From: Candidatus Staskawiczbacteria bacterium RIFOXYC1_FULL_38_18
Lineage (GTDB): Bacteria; Patescibacteriota; Minisyncoccia; Minisyncoccales; Staskawiczbacteraceae
Assembly: GCA_001822095.1 (NCBI GenBank)
Contig: MHPP01000015.1
Span: forward strand, 1-43,196
Length of the DNA: 43,196 bases
Reading direction: 5' to 3'
This document shows, one piece after another, positions 7,061 through 39,441 of this stretch (the first letter of the stretch is position 1; each line of letters opens with the position of its first letter). A program made the position numbers and the translations under genes. The notes beneath the pieces were generated by a model. That model was not told the origin of the DNA, made no database searches, and was given only the letters and a program-made list of their open reading frames with translations.

Positions 7061-8848
7061 TTAATTTATTAAATTGAAATCTTTGATTAGAGAGTCTACT
7101 TTTTCAAAATCTTTTTCCTGTTCGGCTCTTTTAATTTCCGCCGAAATGCCAACCCGTTTTTCTCTTATATTTATATCCCTTAACTGGGCCAGGCAAAGCT
7201 GGATTTCGTCTGAGCCCTCGTCCTCAAAATTAACTTCTGCCTTCAGCGCCAGAGCGTCAAAAATGCCTTTATAGTCTTCTGCGCTTGAAATGCCCGCAAT
7301 GGCCGAATTAAAATCTGCGCCGGCCGCCACGTTTTGCTTTATTTTCTCTATTAAACTTTTTGTTTTTTCGCAAAACAAATTATGATGGTAATCCTCAATT
7401 AAATTTAGGCTTGCCGGATCTTTTGCAATTAAAGAAATAATTTTTTCCTCTATCAATTTCTTCCGCCCCTCTGTACCGTTGTCCGCAACTTTGTCATTCC
7501 CGCGAAAGCGGGAATCCAGATTAGTTTCTGGATTCCGGGTCAAGCCCGGAATGACACTCTCCCCTCGCAATGACGACATCTCGGCCATTATAGCCTCCTC
7601 TTTTACATCCAATTTTTGGGCCAATTTACCAACCCAGTGCGATTGCTCAATTTTATTGGGAAGCCGTTTTATTGCCGGCAAAATTATTTTTGCAATTTCT
7701 TTTTTCCCCGACGGCGTTGATTTATCAAGCCTTGAAAGAGAAGAGTCAAAATAATAATCCATTATTGACCTTGCTTTTTCAATTGAATCTTGCCAATTTT
7801 TTGGGTTTTCTTGAATAATTTCAGCCGGATCCTTGGCACCCGAATACGTGTCTATAATTTTTAAATTAAACCCCTGCGATTCAGCCAAAGTAATACCCCT
7901 TTTTGTGGCATTGTCTCCTGCCAAATCCATATCAAAGGCTAAAAGCAGGTTCTCTGTGTATCTTTTTAACAAAGTCAGGTGCCGCGGAGTTAACGCAGTT
8001 CCTGAAACAGCCACAGTGTTTTCAAATCCTGCTTGATGGCACATTATAGCATCTGTGTAGCCTTCTGTCAAAACGCAGTTATTCCCTTTTCGTATTGCAA
8101 CCTTGGCATAATTTATTCCATATAAAACATTGCTTTTGTCGTAAAGCATTGTTTGAGGAGTATTGATATATTTTGCTGTTTCTTTTTTATCTGCCTCCTT
8201 AAATATGCGCGCCCCAAAGCCTATTGGCTGGGAACTAATATCAAAAATCGGAAAAATAATTCTTCCCCTGAATCTGTCGTACGGATTATTTCCCTTTTCA
8301 GATTGAACAGCTAATCCCGCTCTTATAATTTCATTTCTTGTGTATCCCCTGCCCACCAAAAAATCAGACAACCCCTGCCAAGTATCTGGCGAATAACCCA
8401 GTCTCCACTTTTTAATTGATTCTTCGGTTATCCCCCTTTTTAGCAAATAATCTTTTGCTTTGATTCCCCATTCGCTTCCCCTTAACTGCTTTTCAAAAAA
8501 GGAGCAGGCCAAGTCGCAAATTTCATAAAGCCTTTGCCTCTCGGTTCTTAATTGCGGGTTTTCTCTTTTTAATTCAACGCCTGCCTTTTGAGCCAGAATC
8601 CTTAAGGCATCGCCGAACTCCACGCCCTCAATGCGTTTTGTAAATTCAAAAATATCTCCGCCGGCTCCGCATCCAAAACATTTCCACATTTGGCGACCAG
8701 GCGAAACAAAAAAAGACGGCCCTTTTTCCGCGTGGAAAGGGCAAATTCCGCGGTGATTAACCCCGGTTTTTGTGAGCTTTACATAACTGCCCACAACATC
8801 CAGCACATTCAGTCTGTTTTTTATTTCCTCAATTTGAGAGTCTGACAT
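7061..8848 (-). CDS. dnaG: DNA primase
   Basis: N-terminal zinc finger CPFHAEKGPSFFVSPGRQMWKCFGCGAGGD, Toprim VLTEGYTDAI, DMDLAGDNATKRG; contains an in-frame repeat-derived segment. Confidence 0.97.
   Translation of the reverse strand: MSDSQIEEIKNRLNVLDVVGSYVKLTKTGVNHRGICPFHAEKGPSFFVSPGRQMWKCFGCGAGGDIFEFTKRIEGVEFGDALRILAQKAGVELKRENPQLRTERQRLYEICDLACSFFEKQLRGSEWGIKAKDYLLKRGITEESIKKWRLGYSPDTWQGLSDFLVGRGYTRNEIIRAGLAVQSEKGNNPYDRFRGRIIFPIFDISSQPIGFGARIFKEADKKETAKYINTPQTMLYDKSNVLYGINYAKVAIRKGNNCVLTEGYTDAIMCHQAGFENTVAVSGTALTPRHLTLLKRYTENLLLAFDMDLAGDNATKRGITLAESQGFNLKIIDTYSGAKDPAEIIQENPKNWQDSIEKARSIMDYYFDSSLSRLDKSTPSGKKEIAKIILPAIKRLPNKIEQSHWVGKLAQKLDVKEEAIMAEMSSLRGESVIPGLTRNPETNLDSRFRGNDKVADNGTEGRKKLIEEKIISLIAKDPASLNLIEDYHHNLFCEKTKSLIEKIKQNVAAGADFNSAIAGISSAEDYKGIFDALALKAEVNFEDEGSDEIQLCLAQLRDINIREKRVGISAEIKRAEQEKDFEKVDSLIKDFNLIN
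7492..7576. repeat. Palindromic repeat (family A) inside dnaG
   Basis: TGTCATTCCCGCGAAAGCGGGAATCCAG...CTGGATTCCGGGTCAAGCCCGGAATGACA followed by ctcGCAATGACG; translates on minus strand as SSLRGESVIPGLTRNPETNLDSRFRGNDK. Confidence 0.92.
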
Positions 8849-16236: not shown

Positions 16237-19077
16237 TTAATTTTTCAAATATTTTCCGGTGTAGCTGTTTTTGTTTTTAATTATGTCACTTGGAGCGCCT
16301 TCGGCTATTACTTCTCCGCCTTTGTCCCCTCCTTCGGGACCCAAATCAATCAGCCAGTCTGCATTTTTAACCAAATCCAAGTTGTGCTCAATAACCAAAA
16401 CTGTATTTCCTTTTTCTACTAAATTTTTTAAAACTGAAACAAGTTTTTTAATGTCGTCAAAATGCAAACCTGTTGTGGGCTCGTCTAAAATATAAAGAGT
16501 CCTGCCCGTATCTCTCCTTGATAATTCTGTTGCCAACTTTACTCTCTGCGCTTCCCCGCCGGATAGTGAAGTTGCCGCCTGCCCCAGCTCAACATAAGAA
16601 AGCCCGACCTCTTTTAAAGTTTTGAGCTTTTCATAAAGCCCGGGAATGTTTTTAAAAAATTCCATTGCCTCTTCAACTGTCATATTTAAAACATCTGAAA
16701 TATTTTTTTCCTTGTATAAAACCTCCAAAACTTCTTTGCTATATCTTTTTCCGTGGCATTCTTCGCACTCTACATAAATATCGGGCAAAAAATACATTTC
16801 AACTTTTTTCTGCCCCTGCCCTTCGCATGCTTCGCACCTGCCTCCTTTTACGTTAAAACTGAACCTGCCCGCTCCATAACCGCGCACGCGAGCTTCTTTT
16901 GTTTTTGTAAAAATATCCCTTATGTATGAAAAAGCTCCGGTATAAGTTGCCGGATTTGACCTTGGAGTCCTGCCAATCGGCGACTGGTCTATTAAAACAA
17001 CTTTATTCAAATTTTCAACGCCCAAAATTTCTTTGTGTTTTCCCGGTTCATCTTTTGCCCTGTAAAACTTTTTGAGCAAAGCTTTAGCTAATATATCTGA
17101 AACCAAAGAAGATTTTCCCGAGCCCGAAACTCCGGTTACGCAAACAAATTTTCCAAGCGGTATTTTAACATCAATATTTTTTAAATTATGCTCTTCTGCC
17201 CCAACTATTTTTAAAAACCCAGATTTTGAATTTTGGTCATTTAGATTTGTTTCGGATTTCGGATTTCGGATTTCGGATTTTTTAGAGACTTCCACCTTTA
17301 GTTTCCCCGACAAATATTTTCCGGTCAAGCAATCTGATTTTAAAATTTGTTTTGGAGTTCCTTCAAAAACAACTTTCCCTCCATGCTTTCCGGCGCCCGG
17401 CCCTATGTCAACAATCCAGTCAGATGCCATCATTGTCTGCGGGTCGTGCTCAACAACAACAACTGTGTTTCCCAGTTCTTTTAATCTTACCAAGGTGTCA
17501 ATCAGCCTATGCTGATCTCTTGGGTGCAAGCCAATGGACGGTTCGTCTAAAATATACAAAACTCCGGATAATTTTGAGCCAATTTGCGTTGCCAACCTTA
17601 TTCTTTGCTCCTCTCCTCCCGCCAACGTTCCTGCTTTTCTACTTAGTGTCAGGTAAGAAAGGCCCACGTCAACCAAAAATTGCGACCTATCCACTATTTC
17701 TTTTAAAATTGGCGCTGAAATTTTCAATTCGCCCGCGCTTAATTTTCCGCCCAGGGCGGAAAAAAAATCTTTTACTTTGTCTACAGACAAATCAACAACT
17801 TTGTCTATAGATAAATCGTTCACTGTTACAGCCAAAACCTCCTGCTTTAATCTTTTGCCTTTGCATTTTGGGCAAATTTTAATAACCATATATTGCTCAA
17901 TTTCCGACCTTGTCCAGTCAGAATCTGTTTCGCGGTATCTTCTCTCAAGGTTTGGGATAACGCCCTCAAACCCTTCGACTCCGCTCAGGGCGGGTTCGCC
18001 CCGCAAAATAATATCAATAACTTTTTGTGGCAGGTCTTTTACTTCTTCATCTAGCGAAAAGTTATATTTATCTGCCAGTCCTGAAATAATAGAATAATAA
18101 TATCCCTGCCTTCCCACTTTGTGGCTGGCTTTTGCCCACGGCCAAATAGCACCCTCTGCCAACGTTAATTTTTTATTTGGAATTACCAGTTCGGGGTCAA
18201 CTTCCAGTTTTTCTCCAAGCCCGGTGCATTCAGGGCATGCTCCATAGGGATTGTTAAAAGAAAATGTCCTTGGCTCCAATTCAGGCAAAGAAATTCCACA
18301 ATCTTCGCAGGCAAAATGCTCCGAAAAAATCAGATCTTTTTCTTTGTCATTTTTTTGCCCGATTATCACAATTCCTTTTCCCAATCTAAGCGCGGTTTCC
18401 AACGAATCAACCAGTCTGGACCTTTCCAAATCTTTTCCCAAAATTAATCTGTCAACAACAACTTCAATGTTATGTTTTCTTTGTTTATCTAATTGTTTTT
18501 GTATAGCTTCTTCTATTGGATATACATTTCCGTCCAATCTTATTCTCATAAATCCGGCTCTTTGGATTTCTTCTAAAACAGCCTGATGCTCGCCTTTTTT
18601 ATTTTTTATCACAGGCCCTAAAATAGCAATCTCCGAGTTTCCCTTTATTTTCATTACCTGGCCTACAATTTGGTCTATTGTTTGTTTTGAAATCAACTTT
18701 CCGCAATTTGGGCAATGCGGTTTTCCAACACGGGCGTAAAACAATCTTAAATAATCATATATTTCAGTAATAGTCCCAACGGTTGATCTTGGGTTATGAG
18801 TAGATTTTCTTTGGTCAATTGAAATTGCCGGGGAAATTCCTTCAATTTTATCAACATCGGGCTTGTCCATTATTCCTAAAAACTGCCTGGCATAAGCTGA
18901 CAAACTTTCAACGTATCTTCTCTGTCCCTCCGCATATAAAGTATCAAAAGCCAGCGAGCTTTTTCCTGAACCCGAAAGCCCTGTAATAACAATCAGCTTA
19001 TTTTTGGGCAAGTCCAAATCTATGTTTTTTAGATTATGAACCCTGGCGCCCCTAATTTTGATAAAATTATCTGCCAT
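16237..19077 (-). CDS. uvrA: Excinuclease ABC subunit A
   Basis: Two ABC ATPase modules ([44 protein letters not shown]), zinc-finger cysteines; start set at [21 protein letters not shown]. Confidence 0.97.
17219..17281. repeat. ATCCGAA-type repeat (family D) inside uvrA
   Basis: ttcggatttcggatttcggatttcggattt plus flanking aaatctaaatgaccaaaattcaaaatc; encodes [20 protein letters not shown]. Confidence 0.88.
17971..17991. repeat. Family B short repeat inside uvrA
   Basis: cccttcgactccgctcagggc; encodes ..[10 protein letters not shown].. Confidence 0.88.
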
Positions 19078-19104
19078 ATCCTTTATGCAAAGAAATAGTG
19101 CTTT

Positions 19105-19133
19105 ATTATACACAAAAAAGCAGGCTCGTTCAA
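19105..19133 (-). promoter_or_regulatory. uvrA promoter overlapping the upstream terminator
   Basis: Minus strand TTGAAC-17 bp-TATAAT; -35 is the hairpin loop. Confidence 0.65.
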
Positions 19134-23924: not shown

Positions 23925-26900
23925 TTACTGCCCCAGCATTACTTTCAACTGCGCCAAAATGTTATTTATTGCGCTACTAATGCTGGCCAAGGAATCACTT
24001 TTGCTTATCATTGCAGATTGTGTGTTAAAATTTTTCAAATAAAACACTGATGAAATTGAGTCATAAAGCCCCACCGAATCTCCGCCTGTTCCATCCCAGT
24101 CTCCCGCAACCGGTTTAAATCCGGAATTTGCCGTGCCAAATACAAAACTTGCATCTGCATATCCTACGCTATTTGTATTTCTTAAATGAAATGTGGCTGT
24201 AGTCGGGTCGTATAGTCCTATCGTTGTATCTCCATCTCCGTCCCAGTCGCCGGCAACAGGAAGCCACCCAGGGGCGCCAAACCCAAAACTTATGTCAGCG
24301 TATCCTGTGGAGTTGGAGTTTTTCAAATAAAAATTAGAAGTAGCCGGGTCGTATAATCCGACTGTTGTTGTGCCATTGCCATCCCAGTCTCCTGCAATTG
24401 GCTTCCAACCCGCAGTGCCAAAAGAAAAAGTTGTGTCTGCAAAACCCGTTGAGTTGGAATTTCTTAAATAAAACCAGGAATTAATTGGGTCGTATAAACC
24501 AATTGTTGAGGTTGTTGCTGTATTTGTCCACTTGCCTGCAATTGGAAGCCACCCTGCCGCTGATTGGCCATACGGAAAACTTATGTCGGACGCGCCGGTT
24601 GTGTTTGAATTTTTTAGGTAAAAATTTGACGGCGGGTCAAAAACGCCCACGCTTGTTCCGCCTTGCCCGTCCCAATTCCCCACAACAGGGAGCCAGTCAG
24701 CCGCTGATGCGCCAAATCCAACCGTCAAATCCGCCACCGGCCCAGCGTTAGCTACGCCAAAATATCCATTGCTCGCGTCCTCGGCAAGGACTGTCCCGCA
24801 GGTAGCTTCTATGGGTCCGGCAATTGTACAGACCTGGGCTTTTATCTTATATTGGCCAACAGGCAACATCGGAGTCCAATTATAACTGGTTCCACCGCCC
24901 AAAATTCCACTTGATACTACAACTCCGCCGGTATTATTTAATACTACAAGATTAATTCCATTATCGGCAACAACATTAGTTGTTATCCAGCTAACGGGAA
25001 TTACCTGACTGCTTCCTACGGGAAAAGTTTCCCCGCCGTTTGGCGAGGTAACCGTGATTGTCGGGTTTATTGGAGGCGTGCAAGTTTGCGTCAATGGTAA
25101 TGGAGCTGTTCCCGTGCACCCTGTTGGCACACCTGTTGCTGTTCTTGTCTGGGTTCCGGATGCCGGACAGATTGCGGGAGTCCACGCAGAATAGTCAAAT
25201 GTGGTGCAAGTGTTTGAAGCCACTACGTTCCAGTCGCCGGAAATTGGTAGCCAGCCCGAGCCTGCTCCGCCATATCCAAAAGTAAGGTCTGCCACGCCAA
25301 TTGTGTTTGCGTTTCTTAAATAAAACATAGATGTTGCTGTGTTATACAAACCCGTTGTGTCTATTCCGTCATTGTTCCAATCGCCAGCCAATGGCTTTAA
25401 CGCCGTGCCCGCTGTTCCAAATCCAAATGTATTATCGGCATTGCCCGTTGTGTTTGTATTTCTTAAATAGAATATTGATGTGGCCGGGTCATAAAGCCCC
25501 ACAGAATCTCCTCCTATGCCGTCCCAATTTCCGGCAATTGGAAGCCAGCCCGCATTGTCAGTGCCAAATCCAAATGTAATTTCTGCGTAGCCTGCGCTAT
25601 TGGTGTTTTTTAGATAAAAAGTTGATGTGACCGGGTCATAAAGTCCCACCGTGTCTGTCCCATCTCCGTTCCAGTCGCCGGCAATCGGCTTCCAGTTGGC
25701 GCCAGCTGTGCCAAAGCCAAAAGCAATTTCTGCGGAGCCCGATGTATTGGTGTTTCTTAAATGAAATATGGATGTGCTTTGGTCATACAAGCCAACTGTG
25801 TCCGTGCTGTCGGCGTTCCAATCGCCCGCAATCGGCTTCCATCCGCCATTATCAGGACCATAACCGAAAACTACATCAGCGTTGCCTGTGGTATTTGTAT
25901 TTCTAAGATAAAATGATGATGCGGTCGGGTCATATAGCCCGATGCTTTCAAGCCCGCTGGGTCCTGCAATCGGAGCCGCAGAAATAGTAAAATAATTATC
26001 GCTAGTATCCGTTGCGGTAGGAGCCGTAGCTTTTGTTACATTAATTTTATAAGTACTTCCGGGAACTAAGTTGCTTGGAATTGCCCAAGAATAAGAACCA
26101 CTAGAAGCAGCAACGGAAGCTACTATGGAACTACCGGGGTCCACAGAATTAGCAAACAAAGTTATAGCCACTGCGTCGGAAGATAATAAATTTGTAGAAG
26201 TCCATGTGATATTGTAAGTTTCCCCGATTTTCCAAATCTGCCCGCCATTTGGGGAAGTAACTGTAATTGACGGCTGAGTAGTATTTGACGAAGTGATTGT
26301 AAATGGCAAAGAATTAGTTCCAGATGGAGTTAAACTGGTACTTACGGACAAATTATAAGTTCCCGCAGATATATTAGCTGGTACAATAAATGTCAGACTC
26401 GTGTTATTAACGTAATTAGGTGAAATGTGCTGACCATTCAACAACACGCTTGTACCGGCGCCCGTGTTAGTATAAGCAAAATTATTGCCATAAACAGTAA
26501 CTGTCGCGCCTGATGGAGCAGATGACGGAGAAATTGATGTGATTGAAGACTGGATGGTTGTCGTTGGCGCTACAATGCTGAATGTGCTATTGCTATAGTC
26601 GTGCGGGACAGCTACATTATCAGGATTGGTACCAGTATAAATTTCTATTTGCCAATTGTTCCCCAAAGGAAGGGTTGGAGTGTTGGCTATAGCGTTTAAT
26701 ACCCACGTATAATTGCCAACCGTCCATGCATAACCCGTGTTAGAGGCCGGCACTGTGGCAATATAATATTTCCCGCCGGTTACCGGGTCCGATGCTGCAA
26801 TATTTATGTTTCCCAATCCGTACTGCCTCCAAGTGATGTTATATGTCTGTCCGCTTACCAAAGTTTCCCCTCCATTAGGCGTAGTAATCAAAACATATGG

Positions 26901-27472: not shown

Positions 27473-28783
27473 ATGGACAGATTTAAATTTATTAAGGGCA
27501 AAGATTTCAACGAACTCCCAAAAACACCCGGAGTATATGCTTTTTTTGTAAAGAATTTAAAATTTAAAATTAAAAATTTAAAATTAGAGTGCATATATAT
27601 AGGAAAGGCCATAAATATCCAAAATAGGGTAAAAAACCACTTTTTCCAGCCTTCTTACAGGGATAATTTATTTATTTCAAAAGTTGAGAAAATCGGCTAT
27701 TTTGAAACAAATTCCGAGATTGAGGCGCTTGTTCTGGAGGCAAATTTAATCAAAAAACACCAGCCAAAATTTAATGTAATCTGGAAAGACGACAAAAACT
27801 ATTTTTACGTGGCTTTTGTTAAAAACAATCTTGGCACCCCGTATGTTTTTATAACCCACCAACCCAAACTACACCCTAAACCCTACACCCTAAACCCTGT
27901 TTATATCGGCCCTTTTGTTGAGGGCACCGCCCTTAAAAAAACCTTGCGATTTTTGCGCAAAGTATTCCCCTATTATTCAGCCAAAAATCACCCTAAAACC
28001 AAATGCACTTATTGCCATTTAGATTTGTGCCCCGGCCCCGAGCCTGATTTAAAAGAATACAAAAAAAATATTAAAAAACTTATTTTAATTCTACAAGGAA
28101 AACGAAGCGCCGTATTAAATTCCCTAAAAAAGGAAATGAAAAAACTCTCAAAAAAAAATAAGTTTGAAAAAGCCGGAGAAACAAGGGATAAAATTTATAA
28201 TTTACAGCAAGTAATGTCCCACACTCACGTTATAGACCAGCAAAATACGGGTGTTAGTGAAAATCGCGCGATAGCGTACTTTTCACGGATACTTGGATTA
28301 GAAAAAGATATTAAAAAAATAGAATGCTACGATATTTCAAATATTCAGGGTAAACAAGCAACGGGTTCAATGGTTGTTTTTATAGACGGAAAACCCGACA
28401 AAAGCCAATACAAAAAATTTAAAATAAAATTAGGCGATACTCCAAATGACATTGCTATGCTAAAAGAAATTTTAGAAAGGCGTTTTTCTCACAAGGAATG
28501 GACATATCCCGATGCTATATTAATTGACGGCGGAAAAGCCCAGCTTAACGCGGGCATAAATCAGAAATCCGAATATCGAAATCCGAAACAAGTTCAAAAT
28601 ATCAAAATTTTGTCGCTGGCAAAGGAAAATAAAGAATTATTTATTGAAGGGCGAGAAAAACCTGTTTTGCTAAAATCTTTGCCAAAAGAAATTTATAACT
28701 TAGTTTTACAACTTGACTCCGAAGCCCACCGATTTGCTATAAATTATCACAAAAAACTCCGCAAAAAAAATTTATTGCAATAA
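27473..28783 (+). CDS. uvrC: Excinuclease ABC subunit C, C-terminally short
   Basis: GIY-YIG (PGVYAFFVKN..CIYIGKAINIQNRVKNHF), UVR motif, RNase H-like IECYDISNIQGKQATGSMVVF..ILIDGGKAQL; ends at HRFAINYHKKLRKKNLLQ. Confidence 0.95.
   Translation: MDRFKFIKGKDFNELPKTPGVYAFFVKNLKFKIKNLKLECIYIGKAINIQNRVKNHFFQPSYRDNLFISKVEKIGYFETNSEIEALVLEANLIKKHQPKFNVIWKDDKNYFYVAFVKNNLGTPYVFITHQPKLHPKPYTLNPVYIGPFVEGTALKKTLRFLRKVFPYYSAKNHPKTKCTYCHLDLCPGPEPDLKEYKKNIKKLILILQGKRSAVLNSLKKEMKKLSKKNKFEKAGETRDKIYNLQQVMSHTHVIDQQNTGVSENRAIAYFSRILGLEKDIKKIECYDISNIQGKQATGSMVVFIDGKPDKSQYKKFKIKLGDTPNDIAMLKEILERRFSHKEWTYPDAILIDGGKAQLNAGINQKSEYRNPKQVQNIKILSLAKENKELFIEGREKPVLLKSLPKEIYNLVLQLDSEAHRFAINYHKKLRKKNLLQ
27555..27587. repeat. 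aatttaaaat repeat inside uvrC
   Basis: aatttaaaatttaaaattaaaaatttaaaatta; encodes KNLKFKIKNLKLE; related sequence at 39404-39434. Confidence 0.75.
27870..27899. repeat. ccctaaaccctaca repeat inside uvrC
   Basis: acaccctaaaccctacaccctaaaccct; encodes LHPKPYTLNP. Confidence 0.85.
28560..28610. repeat. ATCCGAA-type repeat (family D) inside uvrC
   Basis: cagaaatccgaatatcgaaatccgaaacaagttcaaaat; encodes QKSEYRNPKQVQN. Confidence 0.85.
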
Positions 28784-39402: not shown

Positions 39403-39441
39403 AATTAAAAATTAAAAATTTTAAATTAGAAATTCGTTACT

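Follow-up and report, generated by a model that had tools for sequence, protein, structure and literature searches.

Heptanucleotide repeat arrays in uvrC of a Candidatus Staskawiczbacteria genome: a patescibacterial class of repeat DNA probably retained at tolerant protein turns

The window considered here, 43,196 nucleotides long, is the complete contig MHPP01000015.1 (C15) of Candidatus Staskawiczbacteria bacterium RIFOXYC1_FULL_38_18, whose genome of 687 kb is distributed over 32 contigs, and it includes a uvrC gene with three tracts of tandemly repeated heptamers inside its reading frame. The gene, at 27473-28783 (+), is an open reading frame (ORF) of 436 aa with no internal stops, and its product has the features that define UvrC proteins, namely GIY-YIG and RNase H-like endonuclease domains together with a UVR motif: the Pfam families GIY-YIG, UVR, and UvrC_RNaseH each pass the cut-off, and a Foldseek search matches the UvrC structures 2nrt and 1yd6. 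Within the genome collection searched, its nearest relatives are Candidatus Staskawiczbacteria. As to a C-terminal (HhH)2 domain, the HhH families went unmatched in the profile search; the terminus (28720-28783) directly follows the RNase H domain, and close relatives end at the same point. The three tracts, with the units reported by Tandem Repeats Finder (TRF), are as follows.

27554-27585, + strand: heptamer array 1, AATTTAA/AATTAAA, 32 bp, residues 28-38; TRF AATTTAA x4.6
27869-27898, + strand: heptamer array 2, CCCTAAA/CCCTACA, 30 bp, residues 133-142; TRF CTAAACC/CTACACC x4.3
28558-28588, + strand: heptamer array 3, degenerate AAATCCG x4.4, 31 bp, residues 362-373; TRF 80% match

The original prediction, made from the letters of the sequence, held that uvrC carries three in-frame repeats, and these are real: TRF reports all three, and each exceeds the chance level set by shuffling the order of the codons (3000 shuffles, 500 for alignments to repeat units). 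Period-7 scores of 19 and 14 in uvrC are matched by 0 and 0.1% of the shuffles, and local alignment scores reach 59 against (ATTTAAA)n, 51 against (CCCTAAA)n, and 45 against perfect (AATCCGA)n, where the respective null maxima are 43, 28, and 25. Array 3 is imperfect, with +1 and -1 indels that offset each other. All three consist of several 7-bp units placed head-to-tail, which is what defines heptanucleotide simple sequence repeats (SSRs), or short tandemly repeated repetitive sequences (STRRs). That the repeats are unrelated, as the prediction also had it, is right for their sequences, which differ, but not for their kind: they form one class, all of period 7 and 30-32 bp in length, and array 3 is one member of an AAATCCG family that has further members in uvrA, ileS, and pcrA of the same genome.

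Placed on an AlphaFold (AF2) model of UvrC, built from 37 sequences with a mean predicted local distance difference test (pLDDT) score of 88.8, all three tracts lie at turns, as the prediction of permissive loops had implied. Array 1 lies in the turn joining strands 20-27 (GVY) and 38-46 (YIG) of the GIY-YIG domain, and widens the spacing of the GIY and YIG motifs, for which the family norm is about 10-11 residues, to 19 residues. Array 2 lies in the loop separating strands 123-128 and 143-148 (THQ...YIGPF), with pLDDT <50 at 135-138, while array 3 lies in the RNase H domain at the end of helix 355-367, ahead of strand 378-383. Coding arrays, moreover, run in the hydrophilic orientation, their consensus peptides having a mean Kyte-Doolittle value of -1.09 in the sense and +1.11 in the antisense direction (n=44). 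They also keep the frame of the conserved protein genes that hold them, as Rickettsia palindromic elements (RPEs) do: no frameshifts were found in the array-bearing genes of the located relatives, where internal stops are confined to the vicinity of gene or alignment ends.

An alignment of 59 distinct patescibacterial UvrCs (loop limits taken from MAFFT alignments) shows that the three loops differ in both length and sequence, the opposite of peptides that stay the same in remote homologues while their codons are non-repetitive. Of the loop sequences, 4 of 55 for loop 1, 10 of 57 for loop 2, and 6 of 59 for loop 3 were called as carrying heptamer arrays. Loop 1 usually has 17-18 aa when it lacks a repeat and 25-38 aa when it bears heptamers; loop 2 mostly has 17-20 aa without an array and 24-26 aa in 7 of the 10 heptamer cases (one of the others has 22 aa and two are longer), an excess of about 21 bp, that is, three heptamers, the smallest in-frame gain. 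The units found in the relatives' loops and in the linker that follows the UVR motif are other heptamers (AGCTACA, CTAAATT, AATTGAA, AAATTCG, CTACTCA, and more), and in some relatives these places are occupied by palindromes such as ACATACAAAATGTCCGGTCGGACATTTTGTATGT and CCTGCCTGCCGGCAGGCAGG. The only array shared with a relative is that of loop 1, whose AATTTAA type is common to one congener (L011/L090). One relative (L099) has in loop 3 a composite of 52 aa, made up of an AAATCCG array, a GC-rich apparent inverted repeat, and a second, AATTCAA-like tract.

The arrays of uvrC belong to a class with a distinct period and length; its thresholds were set in the course of the analysis, with one genome taken per species. 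Period 7 accounts for 18 strong arrays in patescibacterial loci totalling 457 kb, whereas the other periods from 4 to 30 yield 0-7, most of them 0-2, with 7 at period 14 and 6 at period 18; real DNA holds 37 period-7 arrays against 4 in third-order Markov sequence. A typical array has about 4.5 units. Among 50 deduplicated coding arrays the length mode is 31-33 bp and none exceeds 38 bp, and 22 deduplicated arrays called intergenic, a label that depends on a crude longest-ORF gene caller, spread more broadly with a mode of 31-32 bp. When all 160 arrays across the records are taken together, 83 measure 30-33 bp and a thin tail reaches 120 bp, and the length limit is therefore not an artefact of the detector. 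The source genome (G000), sampled as stretches covering ~310 kb of its 687 kb, holds 17 such arrays, dispersed in the genome, of which the same crude caller places 9 within ORFs; one array in the window is called intergenic.

39403-39434, strand not assigned: AATTAAA-type heptamer array, 32 bp, called intergenic

A constant 3' tail, AAACAAA, was considered as a further mark of the class and set aside as weak, being present in 9 of 160 arrays compared with 1.7% of A-rich 14-mers and at the 5' edge in 6 of 160; such tails occur chiefly in AAATCCG-like families.

The gain of arrays is not a trait of uvrC alone, the one gene that the original prediction considered: UvrA, UvrB, IleRS, and TsaD behave alike and the process is genome-wide. 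The window holds a second member of the AAATCCG family on its minus strand.

16237-19113, - strand: uvrA, 958 aa, Pfam UvrA_inter and UvrA_DNA-bind; carries the AAATCCG family
17250-17280, - strand: perfect AAATCCG array in uvrA, 4.4 units, 31 bp, in the loop ahead of a KFLTIKGA-type motif

The same UvrA loop is an array hot spot in relatives, where arrays lie largely at nt 1747-1906 of the gene with differing units, and UvrB arrays occupy nt 673-694 in 8 genomes, again with differing units. In about 30 relatives the densities are 0.156 arrays/kb for UvrA, 0.163 for UvrB, and 0.271 for UvrC, against 0.039 for DnaG and none in RNase J (rnjA) and TypA (typA). Relative to the coding background of the genome samples, uvrA/B/C hold 32 arrays in 175 kb against 11 in 622 kb, an enrichment of 10.3-fold with a P of about 4e-13 that is optimistic, as are the other P values, since the compared genes share ancestry and kinship was ignored; adding the flanking ORFs to the background gives 8.8-fold, a conservative figure because some of the flanking-ORF matches are uvrA and uvrC arrays themselves. 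A function specific to repair genes is nevertheless insufficient as an account. IleRS, picked after one array had been seen in ileS of the source genome, has 10 arrays in 28 relatives (0.150 arrays/kb), 7 of them at nt 2016-2084, a single-loop hot spot in other species; the TsaD gene of one relative (G018, L138:18760-19896) has three heptamer arrays, equal to the count in uvrC; and the sampled stretches hold arrays also in ksgA, pcrA, ychF, polX, atpD, atpG, and tsaD besides ileS. The shared factor is probably the tolerant loop rather than the pathway. In array-less UvrA loops a residual period-7 signal remains (0.36 vs 0.30, P<0.001); for array-less UvrB loops, the by-eye impression that these are decayed arrays was rejected, a residual signal being absent (P=0.38).

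Several further observations were made on these genes. The UvrA loop in L159, L161, L163, and L156 contains long repeats of a dispersed type (e.g., GTCATTCCCGCC...; palindrome CTCGCAATGACGCGTCGTTGTCATTGCGAG) that are translated in frame. Most genomes have a second UvrB_inter match beside uvrB, in a frame of ~650-800 aa (e.g., G000:C24:46428-46637). The dnaG coding sequence of the window bears a near-perfect inverted repeat, CCGGAATCCAGAAACTAATCTGGATTCCCG, at 7509-7538 (-).

Within the source genome AAATCCG arrays occur in uvrA, uvrC, ileS, and pcrA (the last two on other contigs), each of 31 bp, and AATCCGAAATCCGA has 8 overlapping matches genome-wide, all in four arrays. A permutation test of unit kinship on 79 arrays from 25 genomes found identical units in 7.9% of comparisons within genomes and 2.0% between them (P=0.001), and units within one change of each other in 31.9% and 15.6% (P=0.0015), which favours genome-specific families that spread, to which a common mutational bias could add. 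Three successive AAATCCG units occur in 6 of 145 patescibacterial genomes and the reversed word in 0, and in viral contigs 18 stretches contain AAATCCG and 2 its reversal, whereas AAACTAC occurs in 1 against 1 for its control; judged by these word counts, a unit vocabulary common to different bacteria is supported for AAATCCG and unsupported for AAACTAC. The AAATCCG arrays of the viral contigs (L318-L335) have about four units and are mostly in ORFs on the sense strand, some of the contigs being GC-rich. A plasmid search with an AAATCCG-containing element returned zero matches.

We consider it probable that the repeats of uvrC are explained by a genome-wide supply of heptamer arrays that are retained at tolerant turns. 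The lineage would hold a genome-wide pool of two kinds of repeat, small palindromes and period-7 tracts, the latter usually 30-33 bp long (about 4.5 units), and both would continually arise or be copied in; in coding DNA a tract would survive only where a surface turn can take an alteration of length and sequence that keeps the frame, and the surviving orientation would be the one giving a stop-free, hydrophilic peptide. UvrC may offer at least three such turns as well as the linker after the UVR motif, and would therefore have accumulated three arrays, and arrays that turn over faster than species diverge would leave different repeats at the same turns of relatives. The peptides would then be tolerated rather than useful, and the genome-specific families have probably spread by copying and not through many independent births by slippage. 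Two findings weigh against this account. The peak at 30-33 bp is present in intergenic arrays, which have no frame constraint, and is not predicted by open-ended slippage; and seven of the eight UvrB loops with an array have 18 aa, the length of most array-less loops, which resists simple insertion. The prediction of recurrent gain at permissive loops is thus borne out as far as the same loops carry different repeats in relatives, while insertion as opposed to conversion in place is unproven because of this equality of the UvrB loops.

A tentative alternative, to which we give a minor share of our confidence, is that the arrays are elements of ~31-33 bp unit length (four units plus ~3 bp, near three helical turns), made or copied in patescibacteria and some phages by an undescribed process that fixes length and not sequence and that can overwrite DNA without changing its length. 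It is likewise possible, though rather doubtful, that the arrays arose in situ by replication slippage, chance seeds of 9-11 bp growing by three frame-keeping units with no dispersal. The gains of mainly ~21 bp in UvrC loop 2 agree with this, as does the sum of seed and 21 bp, which comes to about 31 bp, and units appear to be seeded from A-rich coding sequence; arrays called intergenic, being free of frame, nevertheless peak at 31-32 bp too, the sharing of units within genomes is above chance, and the AAATCCG counts in patescibacterial genomes and viral contigs run against independent origins.

Selection at the level of the protein, whereby loops would need repetitive, basic, turn-forming peptides of which heptamers are one encoding, is unlikely: the UvrB loop is nearly constant at 18 aa and AAANNNN units do give a K-x-[EQK]-[IT]-x-N-x pattern, but a peptide repeat of 7 aa requires only a DNA period of 21 bp rather than one of 7 bp, the repeat is missing from many relatives, and palindromes yield very different peptides. 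Somewhat less likely again is phase variation, in which 7-bp slippage would toggle repair genes, create transient mutators, and make the arrays selected contingency loci. A unit length indivisible by three and the roughly tenfold density in uvrA/B/C speak for it, but the arrays are short and frequently degenerate, the same loops are used by palindromes, IleRS, TsaD, ATP synthase subunits, and KsgA also bear arrays, the indels of uvrC array 3 compensate each other, and array-bearing genes that could be located are all without frameshift, so that off-frame alleles, the mark of a phase-variable locus, do not appear among them. DNA uptake sequences, known from other bacteria to be enriched in genome-maintenance genes, would fit the high density in repair genes but are very improbable here, given only the eight overlapping matches of AATCCGAAATCCGA in the whole genome and congeners that differ in unit at one and the same loop.

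Elsewhere in the window, a 147-bp tandem repeat (1.9 copies, 25561-25841) lies inside a minus-strand ORF of 1147 aa adjoining one of 1580 aa, both encoding large proteins.

These findings tie the unexplained preference of long simple repeats in bacteria for 7 bp to visible effects in conserved proteins. The loops of UvrA, UvrB, UvrC, and IleRS provide defined sites for counting, along a phylogeny, how often tracts are gained, lost, and exchanged. The sharp peak at 30-33 bp is a constraint for any proposed mechanism, and where a patescibacterial protein has a loop insertion specific to its lineage, this may be repeat DNA and not functional adaptation.

Among known systems, heptanucleotide SSRs and STRRs have been described in cyanobacteria, Xanthomonas, and Beggiatoaceae as dispersed arrays of imperfect units, about four units being commonest (56% in one Xanthomonas genome and 42% in another), and heptamers are the top class of long SSRs in most bacterial genomes, published without an explained function (PMC4692102, PMC4679880, PMC6344855). 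The present arrays resemble them in period, in having about four units, and in being dispersed and imperfect, but the known ones are mainly intergenic (7-11% intragenic in Xanthomonas), whereas many of those reported here lie in conserved housekeeping genes and occupy the same loops across many species with different units. RPEs are families of stem-loops of 100-150 bp that sit inside conserved genes, keep the frame, and have an insert common to orthologues (PMC2229807, PMC3767692); repeat DNA in conserved protein genes with an unbroken frame is common to both systems, but the uvrC tracts are direct repeats of 30-32 bp, their class is not palindromic, and orthologues hold different repeats at one site. 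The tandem repeats of Borgs form new, often disordered protein segments, and whenever they fall within ORFs their length is a multiple of three (PMC9879509); here too tandem repeats generate protein segments, yet with a unit of 7 bp and in housekeeping enzymes. The literature searched, with many journals outside its coverage, held no report of heptamer arrays of fixed length that return at the same loops in housekeeping proteins and nothing relevant on such repeats in Patescibacteria. The present case brings such features together: non-triplet units, a fixed length, and the same loops filled with different repeats.
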